Source of the DNA: Bacillota bacterium
GTDB taxonomy: Bacteria; Bacillota_B; Desulfitobacteriia; Desulfitobacteriales; Desulfitobacteriaceae
Direction: 5' to 3'
Length of the DNA stretch: 7,898 nt
NCBI GenBank assembly: GCA_021779415.1
Contig: JAJYAS010000136.1
Coordinates: forward strand, 1-7,898
The notes under the pieces are model-generated. The model did no database searches. It was not told the origin of the DNA and saw nothing but the letters and a program-made list of their open reading frames with translations. Shown here piece by piece: positions 1 through 7,760 of this stretch. The position numbers and the translations under genes are program-made. Every line of letters starts with the position of its first letter. The stretch's first letter is position 1.

Positions 1-157
1 TGCCATATTTTTCACTTACTTCTGCAATCTTGCATGCTTCCTCCGCATTCATTTTACCAGCCGGGATTAGGACCCTACATGCGAAGTGAACACCGTCGTC
101 GGAGGGTATATATCCTTGTCCCAGTAATGATTTCTTCTGCTCATTCGTTAATTCCAT
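1..157 (-). CDS. Siroheme-type nitrite/sulfite reductase-like protein, N-terminal fragment
   Basis: Partial gene: the first 52 codons are present and the rest lies beyond position 1. The ATG at 155-157 has an ideal AGGAGG (165-170) seven bases upstream. The protein begins MELTNEQKKSLLGQGYIP and continues with GVHFACRVLIPAGKMNAEE and a KIAEVSEKYG segment. The order 'HFA-x-RV-x-IP-G-G/K-(x)-AE...A...EKYG' resembles the ferredoxin-like half-domain that opens assimilatory or dissimilatory-type nitrite/sulfite reductases, whose siroheme-[4Fe-4S] centre follows further on. Those enzymes reduce sulfite or nitrite in the cytoplasm with ferredoxin or a similar donor. The cysteines that bind the cluster are not in the window, so catalysis cannot be checked. 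The gene starts 38 bases after the stop of the seleno-DsbA gene with no terminator between, so the two are probably co-transcribed. The family call rests on pattern memory over a short stretch. Confidence 0.6.
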   Translation of the reverse strand, partial: MELTNEQKKSLLGQGYIPSDDGVHFACRVLIPAGKMNAEEACKIAEVSEKYG

Positions 158-195: not shown

Positions 196-798
196 CTATA
201 GCAAGTTTCCCGCCATGCGGAAACCGTGCCCCTGCAGTAGTCTCTCAAGGGTTTGGTAACTCTGTGCCCCATGGGCTGCGCGACCATCGACGATAAAGCA
301 CGGAATCGTATTGATCCCTAATCGGTGAGCCTCTTCCTCATCAGCCCAAACAGCTTCTTCATATTTTCTAGTAACGAGTGAGTTCAGAAATTCTTCTCTA
401 TCCAGCCCGATCCGGACAGCAATCTCCGTCAAAACTTGAGGGTCATTAATGTTTTTCTCTTCTTGAAATTGAGCAGCAAACACTGCATCATGATAGACGT
501 TTTCCCGCCCAAGTTCTTCGGCGAATTTTGAACCTTCTAATGCTAAGCTTGAATGTTTACTCTTATCGTTAAACGTCATCTGCAACCCATATTTTCGGCC
601 TAACGCTTCAATACTCGCTTTCGCCCTAGCTATATAGCTTGGTGGTTTTTCGGGGATATCGATACCCTCCGGCCTAAGCTCAAAGGCTTTCCACTCTATG
701 GTTAAATTGTAGTCCTTGGCCAACTGGTCAAGTGGGACTTTCCCAATCATGCAATACGGTCATAAGAAATCTGAGAAAACTGTAATCTTGTCCGCCAT
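196..798 (-). CDS. DsbA/FrnE-family thiol-disulfide oxidoreductase, probable selenoprotein (UPYC active site)
   Basis: Read from the ATG at 796-798, this is a 200-residue thioredoxin-fold protein of the cytoplasmic FrnE-like DsbA group, which normally carries CPWC or CPYC near residue 13. Here the N-terminus reads MADKITVFSDFL, then in-frame TGA (760-762), then PYCMIGKVPLDQL. The TGA sits precisely at the nucleophilic cysteine, giving Sec13-Pro14-Tyr15-Cys16. The rest matches the family: EWKAFELRPEG (about 35-45), a helical insert, and GINTIPCFIVDGR with the cis-proline at about 166, followed by HGAQS. GGAGG (806-810) lies seven bases before the chosen ATG. The ATG at 748-750, the only ATG after the TGA near the N-terminus, has no ribosome binding site and would delete strand beta-1 and the active site. 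No signal peptide is seen. The alternative is a nonsense-mutated gene, but the other codons are intact and the position is telling. A nitrite/sulfite reductase-like gene follows, probably in one operon. Confidence 0.85.
729..749 (-). promoter_or_regulatory. Candidate bacterial SECIS stem-loop
   Basis: Just 3' of the TGA, the minus-strand RNA can fold as GGG (744-742) pairing with CCC (736-734) around the loop AAAGT. The stem extends outward through T745-A733, one T/C mismatch, A747-T731, and the wobbles G748-T730 and T749-G729. The loop begins about 18 nt after the UGA, within the spacing usual for bacterial SECIS elements. The loop is flanked by the G run usually important for SelB recognition. 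The stem is short and was found by eye, so it supports the selenocysteine reading without proving it. Confidence 0.5.
760..762 (-). other. In-frame TGA, probable selenocysteine codon
   Basis: TGA on the minus strand is in frame between the ATG at 798 and the TAG at 196-198. It replaces the first cysteine of the C-P-Y-C redox motif. Known bacterial selenoproteins usually have a cysteine homologue with Cys aligned at the UGA, and DsbA-like selenoproteins are an established group. A Cys-to-TGA change needs only one base, so a nonsense mutation or a sequence error is not formally excluded. Confidence 0.8.
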
Positions 799-805
799 GA
801 TTATG

Positions 806-810
806 CCTCC
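806..810 (-). promoter_or_regulatory. Ribosome binding site deciding the seleno-DsbA start
   Basis: GGAGG on the minus strand with a seven-base spacer (CATAATC) to the ATG at 796-798. No comparable site precedes the internal ATG at 748-750. This argues that translation really starts upstream of the TGA. Confidence 0.85.
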
Positions 811-888: not shown

Positions 889-1530
889 TTACAACTCATC
901 ATAAAAAGGGATCTGCTCGCCCATCATACTGGCGATTCTCCAAAGATAATCGTTGCCCATGCTTTCACGTTTATCTTCTTTAAATCCCTTATTTAAAAAG
1001 AATTTCAGTGTACCTTTATTGGCGGCATAGCCTGACAAATAGTTTGCTCCTTGTTCTTTGGCAAACTTACGCAAATTAGTGAGTATCTTATCAAGGGTGG
1101 TATCACTTAATGGGTCAAAGTCATCATTTTTCACTAAGACAATATCATTAATAAAAATCTCCTGCTTATTTAGCTTGGATATATGGAGCCCGATTAAAGT
1201 ATCCTCCGAACCTAAGGAATCCATCCACTTAATTTGGGGTAATTGAACCCCAATTAACCCTGAAAACTCCGGGCTATTTCTATAGTTCTCATAATACTCC
1301 TGCAAAAGTTCAACAAGAGACTGATTATGTGCTCTTGCTTGTACAGAAATATTATATTCACTGGGATACTTCAGTCTTATCTCATCATCGCGAAACACCT
1401 CAATACGCGGATTCTTGCCTACTTCCGCCGAGATGTCATCGATTGGAAAGATGCTATTTATTTGTTCCTCTGATGGATTCCACTGTTCTGAATAAATACG
1501 TCTTGGTTTAAGGGTCATGTCAATCTTCAT
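889..1530 (-). CDS. GNAT-like hypothetical protein
   Basis: Codes for up to 213 residues that I cannot assign to a named family. The C-terminal part (about 128-184) has the look of a GNAT acetyltransferase fold: a beta strand INDIVLV, a long helix (KILTNLRKFAKEQGA), a strand NYLSGYA, then N-x-G-T-x-x-FFLNKGF, matching the usual 'N..a..fY...GF' motif. The acetyl-CoA loop Q/R-x-x-G-x-G/A is not recognisable, so activity is uncertain. The first 100 residues are acidic and unassigned. No signal peptide or membrane segment is seen. The ATG at 1530 directly abuts GAAAGG, leaving no spacer. The ATG at 1516-1518 (Met5), some 10-12 bases from that site, is the better start, which would give 209 residues. 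A promoter lies at 1665-1692. Confidence 0.6.
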   Translation of the reverse strand: MKIDMTLKPRRIYSEQWNPSEEQINSIFPIDDISAEVGKNPRIEVFRDDEIRLKYPSEYNISVQARAHNQSLVELLQEYYENYRNSPEFSGLIGVQLPQIKWMDSLGSEDTLIGLHISKLNKQEIFINDIVLVKNDDFDPLSDTTLDKILTNLRKFAKEQGANYLSGYAANKGTLKFFLNKGFKEDKRESMGNDYLWRIASMMGEQIPFYDEL

Positions 1531-1705: not shown

Positions 1706-3682
1706 TTACACTATCTCAGTTATATCATTTGCTCCCTTTTTTGCAATACGTCTATCCTTACGTTTTTTGCGAGTCAAAATCAGTATAAGAGCCAATGCAA
1801 TTAAAACCATAACTAGTAAAAGAATAGCATATATTGCAAGGGCAATACTATTTGGACTACCAATGATGGCAAGGACGTTGTGGCTATTATCAACGTTCTT
1901 CCTTCCGTGGGTCTCAATGTAATATTGAGGAACCTGAGGAACTCCGTTCGCTTGATCAGAAGATTTGAGGTATTCGGCAATCGCTAGCCATTCTTTAACT
2001 TCATTATTATGTCCACTGGTTGTGTCAGTAATTATCTGTGCTTCAAAGTCAGTAATAGGGGTGCCATCCTTTCTCTTTGGTACAATAGATAATAGCCCAA
2101 ACGATTTTTCACTCACAACAGATAGCATCTGAGCGGAGTATAAGCCTGCGACAACTCGATAAAGTTTAGTATTATTGATTTCTTCCAATGTACCGTCAGG
2201 TTTTTGCATGGATGTGTTGGTAACTTTATTAAAAATTAACCTATTAGGGTTAAACGTAAAGTTTAGGCCAGACATATAAAGCTGTGCAGTATTCATTATA
2301 GGTGCAATAGAAGCATCAACCTCACAGGCGGTTCTTAGTTCTTTACCTGTAAGGTAGACAGAGATCAAAGGATAACCTGAAATATTATCAGGACCTATAC
2401 CCAAAGAACTTACAGAGAAGGCATCCGCAACAGTTATATCCCCTTTGACGAATGAGCCTCGTATTGTACCTGAAGGGACAAGTGCTACAGTAACTGGATC
2501 ATAATTCACCCCTTCGGCTTTTTTCACGGCGTATATGTAAGCATCGCTTATCAGGTTACCAAGCGTATCCTCTGCGTGTTTTTTTCCTATCTCTGATGTC
2601 GGCACAAAATTATAAGACGTGTGCGCTAAAATATCATCAAATTTCACGCCAAAGTTTTTAAGGTATTTTTCCTGCACAATTCTCTTAAACTTATCGATTG
2701 TCTTGGTAATATCCAGATCGGAACTCAAACTATCATTGATTTCCTTAAGGTTGTAGTTATTGAGTCTCCAACTATCTCCAGAATCCTGTGAAATATTAAT
2801 AACTCCTAAATTTTCACCATACTCTCCGCATGAGCCGATTATTGTTTTACCCACCATTATTGGTTCAATTAACTTTGTATGGGTATGAGCGCTTATCACT
2901 AGGTTGATTTCAGGAACCTTTTTAGCCAGTAGTTCGTCTTCGGATCTTGTCCTATCTGACGAGGTTCCCATATGCGAAAGGCAAATAATAAGATCCACCT
3001 TTTCTTTTTGTTTTAAACTATTAACGATACGTTTGGCATTTTCAACAGCGTTCGTAAATTCGACTTCGGACTTAGGTGCATTAGAAGCGGCATCCTTACC
3101 CATTAACCCGAAAATACCAACTTTCACACCGTTACGTTCAATGACAGTATAATCTTGAACCCCATAATTCTGCATCGCTTGCTGTAAATTAGTTAATGAT
3201 GAAGTTAACCTTCCCTTCTTATCCCTTGGGAAGGTGAGATTTGAGGTCACAATTTGAGGTAGTTTGTCTCCACTCTTTTTTGCCACTTCTAAACTCTCTG
3301 TCAAACCTTTTGCTCGAAAATCAAACTCATGGTTTCCTAAGGTAACAACATCATACCCCATCTGACCCATTATTCTAAGTTCAGGTGCGTCACTTGCATA
3401 GACTGACTGAAAGAGTGTCCCCATTGAAAAATCCCCCGCATCGACCAAAAGCAAATTCGGATTCATTTTCTTCTCGATATTAATAGCGCTTTGTAGCCTT
3501 GCATATCCTCCTAGTGAGAGTAGTTTCTCATTCACGTTAACATTCGACGGCAAGAAATGATCATGCAGGTCATGAGTGAACAGTATTGTCATTTTTTTTT
3601 GACTTTCTTCTGCAAAAGCAATCGGTATACTAAGCCCTATCACCATTAAAAATATGCACACTACCCCAAAATATCTCTTCAT
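1706..3682 (-). CDS. Exported membrane-anchored 5'-nucleotidase / cyclic phosphodiesterase
   Basis: A 658-residue UshA/YfkN-type metallophosphoesterase that would hydrolyse nucleotides or related phosphoesters outside the cell. Residues 1-24 are a signal peptide (KR, hydrophobic core, cleavage near AFA-EE). The metallophosphatase domain shows THDLHDH (36-42, metal ligands Asp38 and His40), DAGD (81-84), GNHEFD (116-121), SHMG (236-239) and SAHTHT (264-269). These two-metal ligands all appear intact. The 5'-nucleotidase C-domain spans about 345-555, with VPSGTIRG (402-409) replacing the commoner NGG-x-R substrate loop and SGLNFTF (471-477) as part of the base-binding region. A hydrophobic segment at about 614-637, followed by RKKRKDRR, anchors the C-terminus in the membrane; there is no LPxTG. 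The ATG has GGGG about 11 bases upstream. It lies 51 bases after the esterase stop with no terminator between, so an operon is likely. The substrate is not predictable. Confidence 0.88.
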   Translation of the reverse strand: MKRYFGVVCIFLMVIGLSIPIAFAEESQKKMTILFTHDLHDHFLPSNVNVNEKLLSLGGYARLQSAINIEKKMNPNLLLVDAGDFSMGTLFQSVYASDAPELRIMGQMGYDVVTLGNHEFDFRAKGLTESLEVAKKSGDKLPQIVTSNLTFPRDKKGRLTSSLTNLQQAMQNYGVQDYTVIERNGVKVGIFGLMGKDAASNAPKSEVEFTNAVENAKRIVNSLKQKEKVDLIICLSHMGTSSDRTRSEDELLAKKVPEINLVISAHTHTKLIEPIMVGKTIIGSCGEYGENLGVINISQDSGDSWRLNNYNLKEINDSLSSDLDITKTIDKFKRIVQEKYLKNFGVKFDDILAHTSYNFVPTSEIGKKHAEDTLGNLISDAYIYAVKKAEGVNYDPVTVALVPSGTIRGSFVKGDITVADAFSVSSLGIGPDNISGYPLISVYLTGKELRTACEVDASIAPIMNTAQLYMSGLNFTFNPNRLIFNKVTNTSMQKPDGTLEEINNTKLYRVVAGLYSAQMLSVVSEKSFGLLSIVPKRKDGTPITDFEAQIITDTTSGHNNEVKEWLAIAEYLKSSDQANGVPQVPQYYIETHGRKNVDNSHNVLAIIGSPNSIALAIYAILLLVMVLIALALILILTRKKRKDRRIAKKGANDITEIV

Positions 3683-6268: not shown

Positions 6269-6994
6269 TTAACCCTTTAGTTTGGTAACACTCTCACCCA
6301 AATAAGCTTTCTTTACGTCTTCATTGGCCAATAATTCTTTTCCGGTTCCTTTAAGAGTAATCCGTCCGGTTTCGATAACGTAACCCACATCCGCAATGTG
6401 GAGTGCCGCATTGGCATTTTGTTCGATCAACAAAATGGTCATCCCTTGTTTATGAATCTCCCGAATAATGTTGAAAATATCTTTGACGATGAGGGGAGCT
6501 AACCCCAAAGATGGTTCATCCATCATGAGAAGTTTGGGACGAGACATGAGGGCCCGTCCCACCGCAAGCATCTGTTGCTCTCCCCCTGATAGAGTTCCGG
6601 CGAGTTGCCATTCCCGTTCTTTCAGCCGAGAAAAGAGGGTAAAAACCCATTCTATGTCTTCTTTAATCCCCTGATGATCCTTACGAGTAAAGGCCCCAAT
6701 TTTCAGGTTTTCTAGGACGGTCATATCCGCAAACACTCGCCGTCCTTCTGGAACCAAGGTAATTCCCTTTTTTACAATGTTATGGCGCTTCTCCGTCAAC
6801 AGATTTTCCCCATGATAAGTGATTGAACCCCCTTTAGGTTTGACAAGACCAACAATCGAGCGCAGAACAGTGCTCTTCCCAGCACCATTGGCCCCGACCA
6901 AGGTGACAATTTTTCCTTCCTCTACCTCAAGGTTAATCCCTTTTAAAGCTTCAATCCCACCATAGGCGACACTCAACTTTTCAATTTTAAGCAT
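6269..6994 (-). CDS. livF: LIV-I branched-chain amino acid ABC transporter ATP-binding protein LivF
   Basis: One of two ATPases that power uptake of leucine, isoleucine, valine or related amino acids through the LivH/LivM channel, on the cytoplasmic face of the membrane. The chosen start (ATG 6992-6994) gives 241 residues beginning MLKIEKLSVAYGGIEALKG, the usual LivF N-terminus. An ATG ten codons upstream adds only MKRTWGWQKI, unlike the family. Visible motifs: Walker A GANGAGKST (34-42), signature LSGGEQ (135-140), Walker B LLMMDEP (155-161), and LLIEQNAN in place of the common H-loop histidine, which is typical for LivF. VPEGRRVFADMTVLENL (81-97) is also characteristic. The start overlaps the livG stop by eight bases, implying translational coupling. 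Close relatives also carry amides, urea or aromatic acids, so the substrate is not fixed by sequence alone. Confidence 0.93.
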   Translation of the reverse strand: MLKIEKLSVAYGGIEALKGINLEVEEGKIVTLVGANGAGKSTVLRSIVGLVKPKGGSITYHGENLLTEKRHNIVKKGITLVPEGRRVFADMTVLENLKIGAFTRKDHQGIKEDIEWVFTLFSRLKEREWQLAGTLSGGEQQMLAVGRALMSRPKLLMMDEPSLGLAPLIVKDIFNIIREIHKQGMTILLIEQNANAALHIADVGYVIETGRITLKGTGKELLANEDVKKAYLGESVTKLKG

Positions 6995-7760
6995 AATCTT
7001 CTGCCACCCCCAAGTACGCTTCAATCACCTTCTGGTTATTTTGAATCTCATAGGGACTCCCTTCCGCAATCGTGACTCCATGATCAAAGACACAAATCCG
7101 ATCCGAAATCCCCATGACGACTTGCATATGGTGCTCGATCATGAAAATCGATAAGTGGAATTCATCCCGGATTTGACGAATGAACTCAGTCAAATCGTCG
7201 GTTTCCTTAGGATTCATGCCAGCCGCTGGCTCATCTAAAAGGAGAATCTCCGGCTTCGTCGCCAAGGCCCGCGCAATCTCCAAACGACGCTGCTTGCCGT
7301 AAGGAAGCGAGCTGGCTTTTTCTCCTTGAGCATCAACCAACCCCACTTTATCCAAGAGGTTAAGCGACTTCTCTAAGATTTCCCTCTCCTCCCGACGGTA
7401 ACGGGGGAGTTTAAAGGTGGCCTCTAAGAAGTTTGACTTCAGATGCAAATGGTTGGCAATCAAGACATTATCAAGTACTGTTAAGTCCTTAAACAGCCGA
7501 ATGTTCTGAAACGTCCGCGCGATCCCCAGCTTTGTAATCTGATCCGGTCTTTGTCCTGTAATGTTTTTTTCTTTAAAACTAATTTGTCCAATCGTAGGCT
7601 TATAGACACCGGTAATCATGTTAAAGGCAGTTGTTTTTCCTGCGCCGTTGGGACCAATCAACGCCACAATTTCTCCTTGGTTTAAAGCTAGGTTAAAATC
7701 CTTGACTGCTGTCAGCCCGCCAAAAATCATTGAGACATTTTCGACCTTCAATAGGTTCAC
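6987..7760 (-). CDS. livG: LIV-I branched-chain amino acid ABC transporter ATP-binding protein LivG
   Basis: The second ATPase of the transporter, 257 residues, typical for LivG. It shows Walker A GPNGAGKTT (36-44), Q-loop RTFQN (Gln85), the LivG-specific signature LPYGKQRRLE (152-161) instead of LSGGQ, Walker B ILLLDEP (172-178), AAGMNP directly after it, and the H-loop in MIEHHM (207-212). The TGQRPDQITKLGIARTFQN stretch (68-86) is a family hallmark. The start is GTG at 7758-7760 with AGGAGG (7770-7775) nine bases upstream. The start overlaps the livM TGA as GTGA, and its own stop overlaps livF, so the three genes form one tight operon in the usual M-G-F order. Confidence 0.95.
   Translation of the reverse strand: MNLLKVENVSMIFGGLTAVKDFNLALNQGEIVALIGPNGAGKTTAFNMITGVYKPTIGQISFKEKNITGQRPDQITKLGIARTFQNIRLFKDLTVLDNVLIANHLHLKSNFLEATFKLPRYRREEREILEKSLNLLDKVGLVDAQGEKASSLPYGKQRRLEIARALATKPEILLLDEPAAGMNPKETDDLTEFIRQIRDEFHLSIFMIEHHMQVVMGISDRICVFDHGVTIAEGSPYEIQNNQKVIEAYLGVAEDYA

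Follow-up and report, generated by a model that had tools for sequence, protein, structure and literature searches.

A gene on the reverse strand of contig JAJYAS010000136.1 (GenBank assembly GCA_021779415.1, a Bacillota bacterium of the Desulfitobacteriaceae), at positions 196 to 798, very probably encodes a cytoplasmic FrnE-like thiol-disulfide oxidoreductase with selenocysteine (Sec) as the attacking residue of its active site (U13-P-Y-C16). We put the probability of this reading, which was reached by sequence comparison, at about 94%. The window, i.e. the whole stretch of DNA that was analysed, is 7,898 nucleotides (nt) long. The evidence consists of the reading frame, a TGA shared with relatives, constrained DNA after this TGA, the presence of sel genes in relatives and a FrnE fold. 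DsbA-like selenoproteins are already known as a kind of protein, and the window gene is well supported as one of them. Its features are as follows.

196..798 (-): FrnE/DsbA-like selenoprotein gene, 200 residues with predicted Sec at residue 13; open frame with a single TGA.
806..810 (-): GGAGG ribosome-binding site, 7 bases ahead of the ATG at 798-796; direct reading of the sequence.
760..762 (-): TGA predicted to be read as selenocysteine, residue 13; shared by 35/35 close homologues, whereas 8 distant paralogues have Cys.
751..762 (-): predicted active-site motif U-P-Y-C at residues 13-16, from the frame; Cys16 kept in 35/35.
748..750 (-): internal ATG, the start chosen by gene callers; ATG in just 26/35 homologues.

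The frame comprises 201 codons including the TAG at 198-196 that closes it, and the TGA is its sole earlier in-frame stop. From the 5' side the order is GGAGG at 810-806, seven bases, the ATG at 798-796, the 12 codons ahead of the TGA (MADKITVFSDFL), the TGA at 762-760 and the codons for PYC. Direct reading thus confirmed what the first-pass annotation had described, namely a frame with a lone TGA, an upstream ATG and a GGAGG seven bases away from it. The same annotation had expected a standard gene caller to report a 184-residue protein without an active site, and this is the case for nearly all database relatives: among the 120 homologues listed of the 125 found by protein search, 117 lack the active-site motif. 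The exceptions are P0092 and P0095, which have Cys, and P0004, which has Trp both at the Sec site and at its C-terminus; the Trp of P0004 probably stems from the genetic code chosen by the gene caller.

At the nucleotide level, a scan of close-relative genomes gave seven loci with TGA in 7/7, the nearest relative found being Desulfosporosinus metallidurans (93% identity). The gene was present in 26 of 45 genomes of the D. metallidurans family, and all 26 matches had exactly one stop, a TGA. Fifteen of the 159 genomes of the Virgibacillus senegalensis family were matched; four contained full-length close homologues with one TGA each, and the remaining matches were a fragment (L054, 56% identity) and stop-free paralogues of 33-39% identity. 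A 398-genome sample of the V. senegalensis class yielded four matches at E <= 1e-45, all with one TGA and one of them V. senegalensis again. An equally large sample (398 genomes) of the Desulfosporosinus phylum yielded six, comprising four with one TGA (three of these already seen), L075 (46% identity, TGA plus TAG) and a 37%-identical paralogue without stops. These searches were seeded with this FrnE-like family and therefore describe that family, not DsbA proteins at large. Homologues on plasmids (149 records) included none with at least 60% identity, the maximum among the 10 listed being 36%, and phage homologues were only distant (3 records, 28-31% identity).

The motif D-x-x-(stop or C)-P-x-C-x-x-G-K was then sought in 57 sources (the window, L001-L007, L022-L064 and L071-L076). 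Six gave no match (L052, L054, L055, L061, L062, L075), seven were identical copies and L063 gave the gene of L051. The 43 distinct motif genes had TGA in 35, all close homologues, and Cys in 8, all distant paralogues, a pattern beyond chance; counts out of 35 refer to the TGA set only. Judged from these sequences, TGA is the rule among relatives of at least 53% identity in the genomes scanned, though with exceptions. As to the direction of change between Cys and Sec we make no claim; the tree needs one change, but its support is 50/16.

A nonsense mutation or a sequencing error in a decaying gene would also place a TGA in the frame. Broken copies do occur among relatives (L054 and L075), but 35 close homologues, drawn from many genomes, share a TGA at this codon, no further stop is found in 26/26, and constraint at the protein level extends throughout the gene. 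For the lineage this explanation is already refuted, and for the window gene we regard its probability as negligible. Two outcomes named beforehand as fatal to the Sec proposal did not materialise: an error at 760-762 is excluded by TGA at this codon in independent genomes, and in place of scattered stops the 26 Desulfitobacteriaceae matches have TGA as their only stop, with L054 and L075 as the only broken-looking copies.

The stretch 5' of the TGA bears directly on where translation starts. Across codons 2-12 of the 35 TGA genes, pairwise differences at codon positions 1/2/3 numbered 903/951/3613, and residues S9, D10, F11 and L12 were invariant in 35/35 with several codons used for each. 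The excess at position 3, together with invariant residues under varying codons, argues that this stretch is translated in frame with the rest; by this pattern, the 12 codons ahead of the TGA evolve as protein. Translation from the ATG at 750-748, giving a 184-residue DsbA-like product without an active site, would account for the motif missing from 117 of the 120 database proteins listed, and the codon is indeed ATG in 26/35 genes. Against such an internal start, the 12 codons ahead of the TGA show the protein-type pattern just described and follow a good ribosome-binding site, Cys16, just 5' of the internal ATG, is conserved in 35/35, nine of the 35 genes lack ATG at that codon, and the product would lose residues 4-9, which form the first strand of the fold. 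We consider it very unlikely.

When the TGA is read as a residue, Pfam DSBA (PF01323) matches residues 5-189 (E 2.5e-35; 122.5 bits vs cut-off 25.6), and in the alignment with Deinococcus radiodurans FrnE the TGA falls on the first Cys of CPWC. The AlphaFold2 model (pLDDT 94.3) has its first strand at residues 4-9, and the nearest fold to this predicted structure is FrnE. With respect to the FrnE subfamily, the protein shows a DsbA-like fold nearest FrnE, no space for a signal peptide, and the CXXC in the form of UPYC. Apart from U13 its only thiol residues are Cys16 and Cys167, the latter part of the following feature.

298..303 (-): Pro166-Cys167, cis-proline loop position, third thiol; Cys in 28/35, Tyr in 7/35.

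Pro166 is presumably the cis-proline of this fold family. A third Cys after the cis-proline was considered as a mark of the Sec form and rejected, since Tyr takes its place in 7/35 Sec genes and Cys also occurs there in the Cys homologues P0092 and P0095. D. radiodurans FrnE itself (5coh, 5cnw) is 27% identical to the window protein and has Cys where the window protein would have Sec; it also has a C-terminal CxxxxC, which is absent from the window protein. This absence does not exclude FrnE membership, because the C-terminal CXXXXC occurs in many FrnE members, not in all (PMC8945050).

In the mechanism that we propose, SelB and Sec-tRNA would recognise a hairpin after the UGA at 762-760 and Sec would be inserted at residue 13. 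Sec13 would attack the substrate, Cys16 would resolve the intermediate as a selenenylsulfide, and the enzyme may serve to reduce or isomerise cytoplasmic disulfides or oxidised thiols. The first-pass annotation further supposed that such a Sec enzyme would be more reactive than its Cys homologues. Cytoplasmic disulfide/thiol chemistry is suggested because D. radiodurans FrnE has been proposed as a cytoplasmic disulfide reductase, its disruption mutant being more sensitive to cadmium and diamide (PMC8945050). That the selenoprotein works like kappa-class glutathione transferases or HCCA isomerases, and not by disulfide chemistry, is very unlikely in our estimation.

Insertion of Sec depends on the sel genes, and a genome lacking them had been named as a refutation of the Sec proposal. 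In relatives the opposite was found. D. metallidurans has selA, selB and a 66-bit tRNA-Sec, and SelA scored above cut-off in 33/33 gene-positive genomes tested (26/26 of the D. metallidurans family and 7 Bacilli, G631 and G672 being left out of this count). Within the D. metallidurans family SelA passes in 36 of 45 genomes, including all 26 with the gene (chance 0.0001, relatedness ignored), and within the Virgibacillus family in 32 of 159, including all four with the Sec gene (chance 0.0014, relatedness likewise ignored). SelB passes in 33 of 34 gene-positive genomes. For tRNA-Sec the Rfam gathering score was not specific, with 5/14 controls passing; in that search 6/7 relatives had at least 60 bits and G006 only 48.2. 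At E <= 1e-10, used instead, tRNA-Sec was detected in 9/9 relatives and in 2/14 controls (E. coli and M. jannaschii).

These data also bear on whether UGA, through reassignment or simple readthrough, gives Trp or some other residue and not Sec. The Trp of P0004 at the site and at its C-terminus speaks for such decoding, although it probably reflects the gene caller's code. UGA is evidently not reassigned, because 10 of the 34 genes of this set with their end in view themselves terminate at TGA; furthermore, sel genes accompany the gene and adjoin it in three genomes, and the site is Cys, not Trp, in the paralogues, P0092 and P0095. Decoding other than as Sec is thus highly improbable.

Downstream of the UGA, RNAalifold predicted two hairpins from the 35 sequences.

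734..744 (-): hairpin 1 (GGGA/UCCC), predicted; RNAalifold, 35 sequences.
715..732 (-): hairpin 2 (CUUG.CC/GG.CAAG), SECIS-like, predicted; loop AGUU at 725-722; RNAalifold; within near-invariant codons 19-28.

Codon identity among pairs with the same residue was 0.875 in codons 21-30 vs 0.511 gene-wide, with GGG19, CTT23 and GAC24 in 35/35 genes and CAG25 in 34/35. Base changes in the element mostly fit the stem: a Lys to Arg change makes U-A into U-G in four sequences and an Ala to Val change turns an A-C mismatch into A-U in five, the neighbouring pair being lost in one (L032). The published bSECIS model requires a 3-9 nt loop, a 4-16 bp stem, a G in the first two loop positions, a spacing of 16-37 nt and a folding energy no higher than -7.5 kcal/mol (PMC13188914). 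Hairpin 2, whose AGUU loop starts 34 nt past the UGA, agrees with this model in loop, stem, G and spacing, but only 3/35 sequences reach the energy as a single hairpin. The best-hairpin energy averaged -5.8, whereas 2100 synonymous recodings averaged -0.84 (sd 1.5) and attained the observed mean in 1.4% of cases; owing to the relatedness of the 35 genes, these are not independent cases. With both hairpins included, the piece from the window comes to -10.8 (z -1.0). A change on both sides of a pair was seen at one pair only, in a single sequence (L073, columns 30-49), and an Rfam search of the window gave 10 matches up to E 10, none at gathering score. The case for an RNA element, which we regard as a candidate, rests on synonymous conservation and geometry.

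Several observations weigh against a Sec-containing product. Hairpin 2 of the window is weak on its own (-3.8 kcal/mol, a value that 5.3% of the synonymous recodings attain), the 63-nt RNA of the window folds otherwise and no better than shuffles (71/200 as good), and covariation gives the hairpin no support (120/500 shuffles equal the observed score). Cys stands at the Sec site in P0092 (53% identity) and P0095 (51%), L054 and L075 are broken copies, and one gene-positive metagenome-assembled genome (G004) is without selB. The sel genes of the window's own host, finally, are presumed from those of its relatives.

In three genomes the Sec gene closely follows selA, with a distance to its start of 16 nt in V. 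senegalensis (G007), 17 nt in G169 and 23 nt in G056. Also part of the V. senegalensis cluster are selB, tRNA-Sec, genes for a glycosyltransferase and a phosphonate-type ABC transporter, and a selD that itself contains an in-frame TGA (GGUGCK). Formate dehydrogenase alpha subunits were searched at E <= 1e-100; none was found in G007 or G169, those of G056, G183, G256 and G383 had no TGA inside, and a TGA was present in those of G001 and G672 and in one of five in G299. Every selenoproteome is reported to contain FdhA or SelD, which may maintain the Sec trait (PMC1794560); G007 and G169 fit the SelD side of this pattern, with the FrnE-like gene as a further Sec protein there.

Some further observations concern these loci. 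The selenium gene cluster of V. senegalensis is compact (L086 7181-18401), the Sec gene following selA and selB; its glycosyltransferase scores 286 bits to NF038229, below the cut-off of 400, and its transporter is of PhnD/PhnE/PhnC type, the binding protein matching a putative selenate-binding family below cut-off. One relative seemed to have an unusually long selA frame, but this is due to a run of N in the record and is not a fusion. The broken copy L054 (G055, about 1300-1750) lies right after selA and has lost the active-site stretch but retained the hairpin sequence CTTGACCAGTTGGCCAAGGA. L075 (G631), the 46%-identical homologue, has TGA at the same codon and another in-frame TAG. In G183 the Sec gene is immediately preceded, in the same orientation, by the gene of a Cys-type DsbA-like paralogue (L051 reverse complement, 826-1485 and 1501-2076).

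COG2761 is, we assume, the FrnE group. Nine DsbA-like selenoprotein sequences were reported under COG2761 from the Sargasso Sea metagenome (PMC1088965), and such proteins were found in Desulfotomaculum reducens and others (PMC1794560), counted as 45 proteins in 41 organisms by 2016 (PMC5029168), included in a 2022 list (PMC9312934) and entered in 2026 as DsbA-like form 1, PF01323 UxxC (PMC13188914). The window protein shares the Pfam domain and UxxC with them, a likeness by family identifier and motif. It also matches the Rcas_1661 family thioredoxin-like (seleno)lipoprotein model NF041057 weakly at residues 102-189; with 45 bits vs a cut-off of 190, membership was rejected. For D. orientis, 13 selenoproteins have been predicted (PMC5330540), and the FrnE-like protein may be among them. 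By title and abstract, with most subscription journals outside the search, we found no account of an FrnE-like gene in Desulfosporosinus or of selA-linked copies; nor were the selA-linked Virgibacillus-family copies or the gene neighbourhood described below, with GNAT-like and sulfite-reductase-like genes, met in the accessible parts of published accounts. In databases this selenoenzyme lineage is mostly represented by entries that lack the active site (117 of 120 listed relatives). With correct annotation, Desulfosporosinus-type sulfate reducers and some Bacilli would be credited with a cytoplasmic disulfide enzyme that has Sec at its reactive centre, and the selA-linked copies in genomes free of formate dehydrogenase bear on what retains the Sec machinery. 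The family offers a clean test case, since related genomes are numerous, there is a single Sec codon, the element is short and nearly invariant, and Cys relatives can serve for comparison.

Two neighbours of the window gene recur in Desulfosporosinus-type loci.

889..1530 (-): upstream co-directional neighbour with a GNAT-like fold, 213 residues; in 26/27 Desulfosporosinus-type loci; pLDDT 82.7; weak GNAT matches.
1..157 (-): first part of a small nitrite/sulfite-reductase-like gene truncated at the window end; 90% identity over 52 residues to L001 6641-7339.

Directly upstream, 26 of 27 such loci, the window included, have a co-directional gene of about 210 codons, and the 27th, L003, ends at a contig edge. 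For the upstream protein (L001 copy), Pfam gave no match at E <= 0.5; the Foldseek list for its model (pLDDT 82.7) was dominated by GNAT acetyltransferases (TM about 0.4, E about 1e-4), and a GNAT-like fold is likely on this model. The product of L001 6641-7339 carries PF01077 and PF03460, and the closest PDB entry to the downstream protein is an F420-dependent sulfite reductase (E 5.6e-20). The sulfite-reductase-like gene is downstream in 20 of the 27 loci, was not found in six and is cut off in L045; the other eight loci have neither the GNAT-like gene upstream nor the sulfite-reductase-like gene downstream. By gene order, there may be a link to sulfite or sulfur handling. Tentatively, and with considerable doubt, the FrnE-like selenoprotein might be, besides SelD, the main reason why the Sec machinery is kept in G007 and G169, and in Desulfosporosinus the dedicated partner of the small sulfite-reductase-like protein in a selenium-dependent step of cytoplasmic sulfur/disulfide handling.

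Three of the loci in which the sulfite-reductase-like gene was not found (L044, L046, L047) have a common alternative downstream gene, encoding proteins with VTKVERMMAAINF or VTKVERILAAINF, and a similar gene follows the sulfite-reductase-like gene in L003. Elsewhere in the window, 1706-3682 (-) encodes a secreted-looking 5'-nucleotidase/metallophosphatase of 658 residues (PF02872, PF00149), and 6269-7760 (-) encodes two ABC ATPases of the branched-chain amino acid type, LivF- and LivG-like, both below curated cut-offs, whose genes overlap at 6987-7024 with the listed start codons.
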